Virus record (IMG/VR): IMGVR_UViG_3300044726_000028
Span: 1 to 35,950 of that record
Reading direction: 5' to 3' (one strand)
DNA from: a virus
Length of the DNA stretch: 35,950 nt
Part shown: positions 5,941-27,004 of the stretch, piece by piece
Layout: each line of letters begins with the position of its first letter
Numbering within the stretch: the stretch's first letter is position 1
The notes under the pieces: generated by a model
The model's database searches: none
What the model was told of the DNA's origin: nothing
The model's input: the letters and a program-made list of their open reading frames with translations, nothing else
Program-made: the position numbers and the translations under genes

Positions 5941-6218
5941 GTCTTCAGCCTCTCATACAGGGGCGAGTCCTTGGGGATCGGTGGCTCGACCTGCTTGAAC
6001 CCATAGATGTCATTCACCCTCGCTATCTGGACGACATGAGCATGCTGGCACTTAGGGCATATTATGGGAACTCTATAGGAAGCTGATCCCCTCTTCAGCG
6101 CACTGCCAATTCCACCTACTGTGACACCATGCAACCTAGCTGCCTGAGCCATTGACATACCCATTGCGACATCCTCTAACGCTTGCTTCATTGCTACAGT
6201 CTGCACCCTGCCTCTCAT
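5937..6218 (-). CDS. HTH plus CxxC small DNA-binding protein
   Basis: 93 residues. Residues 10-42 (ALEDVAMGMSMAQAARLHGV then VGGIGSALKR) have the pattern of a Psq/resolvase-type helix-turn-helix that senses site sequence; CPKC follows at residues ~54-57. AAGGAGAT lies 5 bases before the ATG. An operator-like half site (TATACG) lies 25 bases upstream. Likely a small regulator or nucleic-acid-binding protein. Confidence 0.6.
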   Translation of the reverse strand: MRGRVQTVAMKQALEDVAMGMSMAQAARLHGVTVGGIGSALKRGSASYRVPIICPKCQHAHVVQIARVNDIYGFKQVEPPIPKDSPLYERLKT

Positions 6219-6261
6219 CGCTATCTCCTTGATTCTAACGTATAAATATTACTGATGATTG

Positions 6262-6302
6262 GAGCCATCTACTATGGCTCCCCAGTAAAGGGACGCGTCC
6301 CT
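6262..6302 (-). terminator. Two hairpins closing the 6304-6812 gene pair
   Basis: The first hairpin is the perfect palindrome AGGGACGCGTCCCT (6289-6302), directly after the stop at 6304 when read leftward. It is followed by TTTACT and an 8-bp stem GGAGCCAT/ATGGCTCC with a 5-base loop (6261-6281). The T tract is short, so termination may be partial and the downstream leftward genes may be read through. Confidence 0.55.
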
Positions 6303-6303
6303 A

Positions 6304-6564
6304 TTAGCTGGCCTCATCGAATGCTGTCAGCTCCATCTCTGCATCCTCAATGCTGCCCTCCTCATCGAAGTCCTTGAGTGCTTGCTTGGCCTCCTTCAAT
6401 GCCTCCCGAGTGTCCTTGCCTCGCTCCTCGCCCTCATTGTCAGCCTTACAGTTCTCCAGATGCTCCACGAGGTCAGCTCTCTCCTGCTTGGCCTCCTCAA
6501 GGGCCATCTCCAATGCAATACGCTGTTCCTTCATGTCATCCAGCTCATCTTGTCCAGTGCTCAT
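6304..6564 (-). CDS. Acidic coiled-coil protein (86 aa)
   Basis: Very rich in Glu, Lys, Ala and Leu; residues 8-70 look like an extended coiled coil. Start at 6564 has GGGAGG just upstream and overlaps the preceding stop (ATGA); the open frame continues far upstream but only as a shadow of that gene. Function unknown. Confidence 0.6.
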   Translation of the reverse strand: MSTGQDELDDMKEQRIALEMALEEAKQERADLVEHLENCKADNEGEERGKDTREALKEAKQALKDFDEEGSIEDAEMELTAFDEAS

Positions 6565-6853: not shown

Positions 6854-6881
6854 ATTGTATACGACTCTCCGAATAAAGCAA
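6854..6881 (-). promoter_or_regulatory. Leftward promoter with TATTCG-N6-CGTATA operator
   Basis: On the minus strand TTGCTT, 16 bases, TACAAT. The spacer and -10 hold the inverted repeat at 6858-6875 (half sites TATTCG and CGTATA, spacer GAGAGT). It faces the 6812 gene. Confidence 0.65.
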
Positions 6882-6904: not shown

Positions 6905-6933
6905 TTGACAGATTATTCGGATGTCCGTATGAT
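6905..6933 (+). promoter_or_regulatory. Rightward promoter with TATTCG-N6-CGTATG operator
   Basis: TTGACA, 17 bases, TATGAT. The operator is at 6914-6931 with spacer GATGTC. It is followed by CCTGT and CACTCAAC, a leader motif shared with the promoters at 7828 and 22316. It drives the operon beginning at 6973. Confidence 0.75.
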
Positions 6934-7905: not shown

Positions 7906-8703
7906 ATGAGAACAGCAACTGTACTGAGCAACCAAGACCTGATCCGCATCGCACCATCTGTCTTCGCTGAACACGCACATGAGAGCATGTCCGAGAAGTA
8001 CGCCTACATCCCAACCATGTCTCTCGTACAGGGACTGCGTGAGGAAGGCTTCCTGCCAGTTCGTGTCGATCAGGCTGGCTCCCGTAAGAAGGATCACGCT
8101 GGCTTCGGCAAGCACATGCTCCGGTTCCGCCGTGAGGATCAGCTCGATGCCAAGGAAGCACGTGAGGTCGTACTGATCAACTCGCACGATGGCAGCTCTG
8201 GCTTCCAGCTCATGGCAGGTGTGTACCGTCTGGTCTGCTCCAATGGCTTGATCGCCTACCAGCAGGATTGCCACATCAAGCTGCGTCACACTGGTAATGC
8301 CAAGGCCGAGGTGATCGAGGGTGCGTACAAGATCATCAATGGCTTCGACGCTGTTACCAAGTCCATTGAGACCATGAAGGCCATCACGCTCTCGGACACG
8401 CAGAAGCTGGCATTCGGGAAGGCAGCACTGGCCCTGAAGTACGACGATCCTGACAACTGCGGGTTTTCCCCGGCTCAGATCATCCGTCCTCGCAGGTTCG
8501 CTGATGAGAGGTCTGATCTCTGGACAGTGTTCAACGCAGTGCAGGAGAACGTGATCAAGGGCGGTCAGTCTGGCATCAAGACTAATGAGCTCGGTCGTCG
8601 TGTCAGAACTTCATCCCGGAAGATCAACGGCATCGACCAGTCCACTGCGCTTAATCGTGGCCTCTGGGTACTCGCTGAGGAGATGGGCAAACTGGTAGCG
8701 TAA
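7906..8703 (+). CDS. DUF932 family protein
   Basis: 265 residues, full length for DUF932, a family widespread in phages and plasmids with no settled function. Recognisable features are AYIPTMSLVQGLREEGF near the front, the central SNGL segment (VYRLVCSNGL) and the C-terminal NRGLWVLAEEMGK. It has its own strong promoter and ribosome site (TAGGAGCC), implying high early expression. DUF932 genes are often among the most abundant early phage products, so a role in host takeover or DNA protection is plausible but inferred. Confidence 0.85.
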   Translation: MRTATVLSNQDLIRIAPSVFAEHAHESMSEKYAYIPTMSLVQGLREEGFLPVRVDQAGSRKKDHAGFGKHMLRFRREDQLDAKEAREVVLINSHDGSSGFQLMAGVYRLVCSNGLIAYQQDCHIKLRHTGNAKAEVIEGAYKIINGFDAVTKSIETMKAITLSDTQKLAFGKAALALKYDDPDNCGFSPAQIIRPRRFADERSDLWTVFNAVQENVIKGGQSGIKTNELGRRVRTSSRKINGIDQSTALNRGLWVLAEEMGKLVA

Positions 8704-16405: not shown

Positions 16406-17086
16406 CTATCTCCAGTCTGTATCGTCCCAGTTGCCCTTGCCGTGGTTACATGATTGGCACATTATTTGTAAATTATTGATATCTAACGCTAATTCAGGAT
16501 GCTTCTTACGACACTTGATATGATCTACATTCATAATCGCACCATTCTCAGGAGTGTCCCCACAGCACTGGCATTTCCTACCGTACTTGATGAGAGCCTT
16601 CATCCGGAGCTCCCTCCAGTCGTAGCTCTCCAAGAATGCTGGGCTGGCTATGTACAATGCCTTCTCTGGTGAGATGATCGGCTTCTTTACTCGTGGTGCG
16701 CTAGGCTTCTTCGGTTCTGCCTTGAAGTCCAGACATTGCTGAAGAGGTATCACCTCAACAGGCCCACTTAAGCTCTTGTGATACGGCTTATCCTTCCACT
16801 TCACCTTCTTCTGCTTCGGTGGTGGAGGTGGACTTAGCAGCATCTTCCCTGTCGTGGCTCGATTCAAACTCAGGTACTCTGCCAGATAGTGAACACAGTT
16901 CAGCACAGTATGCTTAGTGAGTGAATTCTTCCCCAGTAGCAATGCCAACTGCACCCAATTGTGATACTTGATATCGACATTGCACTCAGGCAATCTGGAG
17001 ATGATCTTCCGCGTCTGTAGCAAGGTGTTCCCACCACACAGTATCTTGGTAACTCGCCTACGTGCCAACTGCCCAACCCCTCTCAT
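16406..17086 (-). CDS. HNH endonuclease
   Basis: 226 residues. The C-terminal part is an HNH nuclease: CQCCG (172-176), VDHI (187-190, D188-H189), then LDINNLQIMCQSCN (201-214) giving the second Cys pair and the Asn. The first 80 residues (LARRRVTKIL..., KYHNWVQLALLLG) may form a DNA-binding region, joined by a proline/lysine-rich linker. HNH proteins near packaging or replication genes can be homing or cos-cleaving nucleases; which applies here is open. GGGGGAGG lies 9 bases before the ATG. First gene of the leftward operon. Confidence 0.75.
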   Translation of the reverse strand: MRGVGQLARRRVTKILCGGNTLLQTRKIISRLPECNVDIKYHNWVQLALLLGKNSLTKHTVLNCVHYLAEYLSLNRATTGKMLLSPPPPPKQKKVKWKDKPYHKSLSGPVEVIPLQQCLDFKAEPKKPSAPRVKKPIISPEKALYIASPAFLESYDWRELRMKALIKYGRKCQCCGDTPENGAIMNVDHIKCRKKHPELALDINNLQIMCQSCNHGKGNWDDTDWR

Positions 17087-17162
17087 TACCCGAAACCTCC
17101 CCCTACCCCAGTGATCGGAGTATGAGGAGGAGATAGGCTTTACCGCCCTAAGGCGTATCGAT

Positions 17163-17196
17163 GTTAGGGGCCGTTATTATGCCCTCCCCTAATCCC
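17163..17196. other. Stem-loop in the control region
   Basis: TTAGGGG and CCCCTAA form a 7-bp stem around a 15-base loop. It lies in the 5' leader of the HNH gene (leftward). No T tract, so it is probably a leader structure. The remainder of 17087-17354 holds only two tiny leftward frames (24 and 16 codons) that I cannot support. Confidence 0.4.
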
Positions 17197-17354
17197 CGGA
17201 CTTCGGATATTCAACCAGTCCACGACAATCACCAGTATGGAATTGCACCATCGCCACATACCTCGGCATAGTGTGTCATTAGCAGTTCTCTCTCCGGCAA
17301 CCCTGCATGGGTTCGCTGTTGACGCAGAAGGCACGGATAGAAGTAGTGGACATG

Positions 17355-17389
17355 AAAAAGCCCCCAGCGAGAATCCCCGCCAGAGGCTT
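17355..17389 (-). terminator. Strong intrinsic terminator, minus strand
   Basis: A 10-bp stem (GCCTCTGGCG with CGCTGGGGGC, some G-U pairs), an 8-base loop and TTTTT. There is no gene on the minus strand just upstream of it, which means it terminates a non-coding transcript. Confidence 0.8.
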
Positions 17390-17511
17390 AGTTACTGCAT
17401 GATCTCAGGCGGCTTGATTCGCTACTTCGGAACTGGAAGGTTCCCTAATAGCGGCTACGACTCTCTCGTAACTCCGCCTCCCAGATCACCGAGGGATATC
17501 AACCCCTCAAT
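17355..17511 (-). ncRNA. Predicted structured non-coding RNA or leader, ~157 nt
   Basis: A minus-strand promoter at 17518-17546 and the terminator at 17355-17389 bracket about 157 nt with no convincing frame. The RNA can fold without conflict: a 5' hairpin (GAGGG/CCCTC, 17491-17508), then a closing stem GTGATC/GATCAT (17484-17489 with 17399-17404) and AGGCGG/CCGCCT (17474-17479 with 17407-17412). These enclose two hairpins, TACGA/TCGTA (17456-17470) and CGCTA/TAGCG with inner GGAAC/GTTCC (17420-17453), then the terminator stem. It is a three-way junction. It is either an independent small RNA or an attenuator/antiterminator leader of the HNH operon. Confidence 0.6.
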
Positions 17512-17517
17512 GAGCGC

Positions 17518-17546
17518 ATCCTATGATTTGATTCCTCACTTGTCAA
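17518..17546 (-). promoter_or_regulatory. Minus-strand promoter of the structured RNA
   Basis: TTGACA (17541-17546), 17 bases, TAGGAT (17518-17523), read on the minus strand. The operator at 17550-17567 lies directly upstream of its -35, a position where a bound protein could repress or activate. Confidence 0.65.
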
Positions 17547-17569
17547 CATATTTCGTATTATCGAATAAT
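17540..17569 (+). promoter_or_regulatory. Upstream tandem plus promoter with operator
   Basis: TTGTCA, 18 bases, AATAAT. It includes operator copy ATTTCG-TATTAT-CGAATA at 17550-17567. Its -35 overlaps the -35 of the minus promoter, so the two probably compete for polymerase. Confidence 0.45.
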
Positions 17570-17574
17570 CCCAC

Positions 17575-17602
17575 TTGACAATCATTCGGAGTAACGTACA
17601 AT
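17575..17602 (+). promoter_or_regulatory. Main rightward promoter of the vWA operon
   Basis: TTGACA, 16 bases, TACAAT, with operator at 17583-17600 (CATTCG, GAGTAA, CGTACA). Fifty bases upstream of the vWA ATG. Confidence 0.7.
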
Positions 17603-22315: not shown

Positions 22316-22343
22316 TTGCATATTATTCGGATTAACGTATAAT
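22316..22343 (+). promoter_or_regulatory. Rightward promoter with operator for 22378
   Basis: TTGCAT, 16 bases, TATAAT; operator 22324-22341 (TATTCG, GATTAA, CGTATA), closest to consensus. Followed by CCTGTCACTTAAC and AAGGAG. Confidence 0.75.
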
Positions 22344-25706: not shown

Positions 25707-26612
25707 CTATACCGATTTACCTGCACCATTTGGTATCGCCAATATCCCCTTGCCCTTCTTGGCCTTCTCCTTCAGCGTCTTCAGCTCATAGTTCAGTCGA
25801 CTATGCTTGCGCTGCCAGTCATTACGAGCCCAGATGAGAGAGTCGACACGGGCATGTAGCTCCATGATCTGCTTGGCCTGTGTATCCGTGCTCTCAGCAT
25901 CCTTGTATCGCTTCAGCTCCTTGCTGACAGCCTCATACTCGACAACCAGTGCATCGTACCGTCCCAGCAATTCGTCGTACTCGAGCTTCAGCACCCGAGG
26001 CTTACCTGACTTATTCGTACCCTTGACCCACTTCGAGTCCTTGCTCTGCTCTACCGCTGCCAATTGCACCTCAGGCGGCAACTTGGAGATACGTGCTGCC
26101 TCGGTGACACCCATCTTCCCATCGACCACTGCTTGCTTCACCTCTGGAGTCCCGAGCTTGACCACTGTCCGAGCCCGAGTCATGGTCTTCTCATCCACCC
26201 CAGCCAGTACTGCTGCTTCCTTACGGGAGATAGGCTTCGCTGCTACGGCTACAGCCACACTTGCAGCACTCTCACGGGGAGCGGGAGGCACTGGCTTACC
26301 CTTCTGCCACTCACTCAGGAGGGCGATTGAGTAGGCCCTCTGTGCGCCATCCATATTCCTTCGGTGGAGGTTCTTCGACATCACTGTTGCTACTGGATCA
26401 TTCCCCTCGAAGTCGAGCATGGGTGGTAGTGGCATCTGTAACTGGCAGAGAGCCATGTACCTATGCCACCCATCCATAATCATGCCCTCGTACAGCACGA
26501 TCTTCTCCTTGACACCATGCCTTCTGATGTCAGCCTTCAATTCCTCAAACGCTTCGGTCTCCATTGATGGGAATGCAGCACTCAATGGATGCCTAAGATA
26601 CGTCCTGTTCAT
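25707..26612 (-). CDS. ParB/Srx-fold protein
   Basis: 301 residues. The N-terminal ParB nuclease-like fold is recognisable: LSAAFPSM...FEELKADIRRHGV, MDGWHRY (47-53) and KNLHRRNMDGAQRAY (79-93). A central HTH (SRKEAAVLAGVDEKTMTRARTVVK) and a C-terminal coiled coil follow. No ParA partner is seen, so it is not a partition system; phage relatives act as DNA-binding/CTP-binding regulators or nucleases. It ends 10 bases before the helicase ATG. Confidence 0.75.
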   Translation of the reverse strand: MNRTYLRHPLSAAFPSMETEAFEELKADIRRHGVKEKIVLYEGMIMDGWHRYMALCQLQMPLPPMLDFEGNDPVATVMSKNLHRRNMDGAQRAYSIALLSEWQKGKPVPPAPRESAASVAVAVAAKPISRKEAAVLAGVDEKTMTRARTVVKLGTPEVKQAVVDGKMGVTEAARISKLPPEVQLAAVEQSKDSKWVKGTNKSGKPRVLKLEYDELLGRYDALVVEYEAVSKELKRYKDAESTDTQAKQIMELHARVDSLIWARNDWQRKHSRLNYELKTLKEKAKKGKGILAIPNGAGKSV

Positions 26613-26955
26613 TCGCTATTACTCCTTTAGGTTGATATGTCTTGATACGATCCTTGTTGACCGCAGCTTGTAGCTTGGCCTCCTTCTTCTTGCGCTTCAG
26701 TGCTTCTGCTTCCTCGATTGCCTTGACCTCAGGCCATATCTTCTCCCACATATCCGGGAAGAGCTTCTGTCTGTTCCATCTACCCGCTGTAGCCATCTCG
26801 ATCTGGTATGCCAGAACGATCAACTTGGCCTCAGGAATCCGGTTCAACTTGCGCCAGTCAGACACGGTAGACCACGCTGAATTGCACAGTGCAGCAGTCT
26901 TCGATGTCCCTCCCAGCATGTCGATGATCTCGGATGGTGTTAGAGTTAATTCCAT
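26593..26955 (-). CDS. Cro/YdaS-like HTH regulator
   Basis: 120 residues. Residues 7-45 (PSEIIDMLGGTSKTAALCNSAWSTVSDWRKLNRIPEAKL) have the pattern of YdaS/Cro-type helix-turn-helix proteins. The C-terminal half is basic and helical (EEAEALKRKKKEAKLQAAV). It starts beside the most symmetric operator copy at 26985-27002, so autoregulation, and control of all the TATTCG-N6-CGTATA promoters, is likely but inferred. AAGGAGG lies upstream. Confidence 0.7.
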   Translation of the reverse strand: MELTLTPSEIIDMLGGTSKTAALCNSAWSTVSDWRKLNRIPEAKLIVLAYQIEMATAGRWNRQKLFPDMWEKIWPEVKAIEEAEALKRKKKEAKLQAAVNKDRIKTYQPKGVIANEQDVS

Positions 26956-26975: not shown

Positions 26976-27004
26976 TTGACATTGTATTCGAGTTAGCGAA
27001 TAAT
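26976..27004 (+). promoter_or_regulatory. Rightward promoter with the most symmetric operator
   Basis: TTGACA, 17 bases, AATAAT. Operator at 26985-27002 is TATTCG-AGTTAG-CGAATA, perfectly symmetric in its arms. A weak leftward promoter (-10 TACAAT) for the Cro-like gene overlaps it, so one site could control both directions. Confidence 0.75.

Follow-up and report, generated by a model that had tools for sequence, protein, structure and literature searches.

A structured, terminated phage RNA of about 157 nt lies on the minus strand at positions 17511-17355 of the window, the whole stretch of 35,950 nt analyzed here from the virus record IMGVR_UViG_3300044726_000028. An earlier note on this DNA had pointed to such an element from the letters alone, and our computations confirm the observation as real: the RNA has a promoter, an intrinsic terminator and a stable fold, and the fold is conserved in one relative. 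Judging from these signals, the RNA is presumably transcribed. Our main reading, to which we assign a probability of roughly 0.48, is that it forms the leader of a leftward operon headed by an HNH endonuclease-domain gene, with the RNA and the terminator acting together as an attenuator and the closing helix P1 as a plausible switch.

Promoter, terminator and fold

The RNA is preceded by a sigma-70 type promoter (17546-17518, minus strand) with the -35 box TTGACA at 17546-17541, a 17-nt spacer and the -10 box TAGGAT at 17523-17518. This promoter ranks third among the 71,820 positions that were scored with a sigma-70 matrix on both strands of the whole record. The predicted transcript start is at about 17511, and the length of about 157 nt is counted from there to position 17355, where the terminator T-tract ends. 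The intrinsic terminator (17389-17355) consists of a stem-loop at 17389-17358 with 14 pairs, of which 8 are G-C according to the terminator scan, and a T5 tract at 17359-17355; it contributes about -22 kcal/mol, as calculated from the RNA fold energies with and without it. The earlier note had described the same promoter, and a 10-bp terminator stem followed by TTTTT about 157 nt downstream; the promoter, the stem and the T-tract stand, while the stem length has to be corrected to 14 pairs. Its further claim that no convincing frame lies in between also agrees with our data, as no ORF of at least 20 amino acids was found inside the RNA on the minus strand. On the plus strand, a 113-aa ORF runs across the RNA; since the relative lacks this frame, the coding explanation was rejected.

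The minimum-energy fold of the minus-strand segment 17513-17352 has an energy of -75.4 kcal/mol (z -5.0), and none of 200 shuffled sequences folded as well. Without the terminator the energy is -52.9 kcal/mol (z -5.2), and the opposite strand folds more weakly (z -2.75). Among 1,196 segments of 120 nt from both strands of the whole record, the RNA takes the first rank (z -4.78). Elsewhere in the window, intergenic hairpins with the sequence TTACTGGGGAGCCAT...ATGGCTCC...CAGTAA are located at 6230-6310 (minus strand) before the leftward gene at 6218, with a fold z of -3.3.

From 5' to 3', the RNA is composed of the hairpin P0, the closing helix P1a and P1b around the inner hairpins P2 and P3, and the terminator, and this minimum-energy structure is the one that the earlier note had described (a hairpin at the 5' side, two stems making up the closing helix, and a pair of inner hairpins). 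P0 (17509-17490) occupies the 5' terminus and is formed by GAGGG/CCCTC, which is CAAGG/CCTTG in the relative. The three-way junction (17489-17399) is closed by the 13 pairs of P1, in which P1a pairs 17489-17483 with 17405-17399, and P1b pairs 17479-17474 with 17412-17407. The inner hairpin P2 (17472-17454; GTTACGA-GAGAG-TCGTAGC) is the most conserved part of the RNA. The second inner hairpin P3 (17453-17420) has a base stem that pairs 17453-17448 with 17425-17420 and an apical stem that pairs 17444-17440 with 17433-17429.

Conservation of the fold and search for homologs

A single contig with the RNA locus was found among the searched sequences, the 27-kb viral contig IMGVR_UViG_3300044728_000090, which was reached via the vWA and HNH proteins of the locus. 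The RNA promoter is identical in this relative, as is a tract of about 360 bp that runs from the terminator into the HNH gene (17011-17372) and includes the synonymous sites of the latter, whereas the divergence of the RNA body between them amounts to about 29%. A covariance model derived solely from the window RNA recovers the RNA of the relative with 53.9 bits and an E-value of about 2e-10. Useful covariation evidence can thus come from just one close relative, provided that its flanks are constant and its RNA body has diverged.

In a structural alignment of the two RNAs, which was made by hand and scored at 35 pairs, the 17 changed paired positions result in five compensatory double changes (two in P0 and one each in P1b, P2 and the tip of P3), three one-sided changes and two broken pairs. 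Random placement of 17 changes gives a mean of 0.86 compensatory pairs (P about 2e-4 for the observed five) and a mean of 11.8 broken pairs, and none of 200,000 runs kept as many pairs as observed. Since this alignment was made by hand, the test was repeated without structure information: the sequence-only alignment contains three compensatory pairs, whereas 126 control segments of equal divergence from the same genome pair average 0.57 and never exceed 2. The minimum-energy folds calculated for each of the two sequences on its own are separated by a tree-edit distance of 24, versus 80 +/- 17 in 242 controls with a minimum of 28; on the opposite strand this distance is 66. A column-shuffle control on a model-made alignment is weaker, with 27 of 500 shuffles reaching the observed count, as is expected with two sequences. 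The covariation that the earlier note had called for is therefore present in the one relative available, and this comparison, all of it with a single contig, argues that the minus-strand structure is real and has been kept despite the changed letters.

Nothing points to a known family. The Rfam 15 families give no match in the window at gathering score, and a search around the RNA up to an E-value of 10 returned only matches at chance level; the earlier note had likewise named no known RNA family. The RNA models R1 and R2 found no further member in about 1.4 Mb of related loci, in some 50 complete records and genomes to which these loci led, or in 399 genomes from the order of a Burkholderiales MAG with a related TerL. 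The five best matches in the latter set (E 0.005-0.37) are all at chance level for a search of that size, and closer inspection of three of them showed that they overlap long coding frames wholly or in part. Patterns taken from the conserved core of P2 retrieved from IMG/VR the same contig and chance matches only, and no genuine match came from comparing the DNA with phages and plasmids. Four loci with distant relatives of the vWA gene are devoid of the RNA, and the sequences of the TerL/helicase relative and of three close relatives do not include the RNA region. Taken together, these data support an unclassified RNA outside the known families, with a fold conserved through compensatory changes.

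MAGs of betaproteobacteria, from freshwater and elsewhere, contain relatives of TerL with about 50% identity, and therefore the host is probably betaproteobacterial, which is a guess from sequence similarity. The RNA adds a credible unclassified structured element to these poorly known phages related to freshwater betaproteobacterial sequences. No tyrosine integrase was found among the sequence fragments examined. A long imperfect hairpin is located beyond the primase gene of the relative contig 3300009091_000041 (L101:120-260) and is possibly an origin or a terminator.

Divergent promoters, the HNH operon and alternative readings

The RNA promoter stands back-to-back with the promoter of a rightward vWA operon (17575-17602, plus strand; TTGACA-16-TACAAT), which ranks second in the sigma-70 matrix scan. 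Between these divergent promoters and just upstream of the -35 box of the RNA lies an operator-like palindrome, TTCG-TATTAT-CGAA (17552-17565), which is the site nearest to the RNA promoter and is centred near -47; another operator-like site, TTCGGAGTAACGTA (17585-17598), is inside the spacer of the vWA promoter. The common motif TTCG-N6-CGWA occurs at these two places and at 6860-6873, 6916-6929, 22326-22339 and 26987-27000, and all six sites are at strong promoters. At promoters 6905+, 17575+, 22316+ and 26976+ the site falls between the -35 and -10 boxes, and the spacer of the strong promoter 7828+, behind which a DUF932-like protein is encoded (7906-8703), contains a degenerate copy. The number of strand-wise matches (8 observed, 0.59 expected from shuffles) is not decisive by itself, because the same letters reversed also give 7 matches; the placement of the sites is decisive instead. 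The shared motif points to one phage regulator, for which the HTH protein encoded at 26593-26955, weakly similar to P22 Cro and YdaS, is perhaps the obvious candidate. As the site nearest to the RNA promoter lies upstream of its -35 box, a factor that would block the early promoters need not block this one, and it might even activate it.

In the direction of the RNA, the terminator is followed by the HNH endonuclease-domain gene (17086-16406, minus strand; Pfam PF01844 and the PHROGs HNH families), the first gene of a leftward operon that extends to about 13773. The HNH start at 17086 is 269 nt beyond the terminator, matching the 270 bases given in the earlier note. The untranslated stretch between them (17354-17087), identical in the relative, contains two overlapping tiny ORFs and no convincing sigma-70 promoter; the best minus-strand candidate at 17100-17400 ranks only 658. 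For comparison, four other starts of leftward genes or operons were checked, and each has a promoter ranked 112 or better. The tiny ORFs (17353-17279 and 17281-17229) encode 24 and 16 amino acids and overlap at TAATG, and the second is preceded by the ribosome-site-like sequence GGAGAGAG. The locus displays the arrangement of an attenuator, namely a promoter, a structured leader, an intrinsic terminator and a co-directional gene without its own promoter, as far as sigma-70 type promoters are concerned. Since the sole strong promoter before the HNH gene is that of the RNA, we infer that the RNA is the leader of the HNH operon unless an unrecognized promoter exists. With a recognizable phage operator on one side and a terminator before the HNH operon on the other, the RNA poses a concrete and testable regulatory question.

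According to the proposed mechanism, the polymerase would start at about 17511, and the RNA would be the first transcribed segment of the HNH operon. The nascent RNA would form the 5' hairpin and the three-way junction, and transcription would by default stop at the intrinsic terminator, freeing a stable RNA about 157 nt long. Expression of the HNH operon would depend solely on those transcripts that continue through the terminator, and the RNA and the terminator would thus together constitute an attenuator. In a plausible switch, a trigger (a protein, a ribosome, an antisense RNA or a ligand) would open P1, whose 3' strand CCGCCUGAG would instead pair with the terminator 5' arm CUCUGGCGG. This possible antiterminator (17412-17377) is a weak candidate: the pairing is kept with different letters in the relative, and its P-value against shuffles is about 0.02-0.05 per sequence, the two sequences not being independent. 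When the antiterminator pairing is imposed, the resulting fold is less favorable than the terminated one by 12-16 kcal/mol; termination would therefore be the default, and switching would require an external trigger.

The leader reading has to be weighed against the small regulatory RNA that the earlier note had also offered, namely a free-standing RNA with its own promoter and terminator that would work in trans through base pairing or protein binding, the HNH operon being transcribed otherwise. This is a serious possibility, to which we give about one chance in three. It accounts well for the complete unit of promoter, RNA and terminator, for the hairpin at the extreme 5' end and for a conserved structure without a frame, and the 5' end closed in a hairpin and the strong terminator suit it equally well as they suit a leader. 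The operator placement can also be read in its favor: the sites lie inside the spacer at the four promoters named above but upstream of the -35 box at the RNA promoter, which is thus beside the operator and not under it and may be on while the early promoters are repressed. However, a complementarity screen of the window found 42 complementary 9-mers versus 33.5 +/- 10 for shuffles and thus no target in the phage; only one complementary match, of 10 nt to the conserved P2 loop, is common to the window and the relative, and a role as antisense to a phage gene has no support from this screen. The HNH operon would in addition be left without a recognizable promoter. It is the latter point, the absence of any other plausible sigma-70 promoter before this operon, that favors the terminated leader and makes it the likelier of the two readings of the earlier note, short of proof. 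Against the leader it counts that a single independent relative carries the RNA and that the HNH operon may use a promoter type outside the sigma-70 scan.

Other explanations receive far less weight. The divergence of the RNA body beside the identical tract and the unchanged promoter could reflect a fast-evolving specificity RNA (for immunity, incompatibility or anti-defence) whose variable letters result from allele exchange or diversifying selection on a fixed scaffold. We regard this as quite unlikely, since other 100-bp bins of the genome pair are equally or more diverged (up to 41%) and further identical tracts are present; the tract at 17011-17372 is likely a recent recombination tract, and mosaic exchange suffices to explain a diverged RNA body beside constant flanks. 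Hypervariability as a special property of the RNA is weakened accordingly by this mosaicism, and no cognate target was seen. The put-like reading of the earlier note, in which the RNA would bind the elongating polymerase and carry it into the HNH operon past the adjacent terminator and subsequent ones, fits the position between a leftward phage promoter, which it follows immediately, and a terminator, like that of putL in HK022 (PMC9378689). It is nevertheless very unlikely, as the RNA differs from put in size, shape and copy number: even with the filters switched off, a search of the window gave no second copy (E 1.7 for the next best match), and nothing in the complete HK022 record is matched significantly by the RNA model (best E 0.24). 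Chance, with promoter-like and terminator-like sites on either side of an unrelated stretch that folds fortuitously, can appeal to the numbers of such sites in the region, which are near those of shuffles; the fold conservation tests, the first rank of the fold and the third rank of the promoter make it highly improbable. Finally, we consider it unlikely, but worth stating, that the RNA represents a new class of phage RNAs, a three-way-junction element by a repressor-controlled divergent promoter that either switches the polymerase past its own terminator without a phage protein or is an immunity RNA that evolves fast and is produced while the early promoters are shut.

Comparison with known systems

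The pR' leader of phage lambda (the 6S RNA of lambda) consists of a promoter, a short terminated RNA and a terminator followed by an operon, and it precedes the late genes. The order of elements at our locus is the same, whereas the RNA described here diverges from an early operon and is not placed before late genes; no Q-like gene was identified among the scanned proteins. The purine riboswitch is a three-way-junction leader with an intrinsic terminator. As in such riboswitch and attenuator leaders, the closing helix of the three-way junction stands directly before the terminator, and its 3' strand could pair with the terminator arm. Unlike them, the RNA matches no Rfam family, and its closing helix has 13 pairs, with the alternative fold at the energetic cost given above. 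With the phage small RNAs c4 and OOP it shares the features of a short non-coding phage RNA adjoining a regulated divergent promoter region, but it matches neither c4 (RF01695) nor any other Rfam family, and no antisense target was found in the phage.

The put RNA of HK022 is about 70 nt long, folds into two stem-loops and is present in two copies, putL and putR, after PL and PR; it suppresses termination by acting directly on the polymerase through the beta' zinc-binding domain (PMC9378689). The RNA of the window is about 157 nt long, contains a three-way junction, is present in a single copy and is directly followed by its own terminator. What it has in common with put is the place of a structured RNA, which would be transcribed immediately behind a leftward phage promoter and ahead of terminators.
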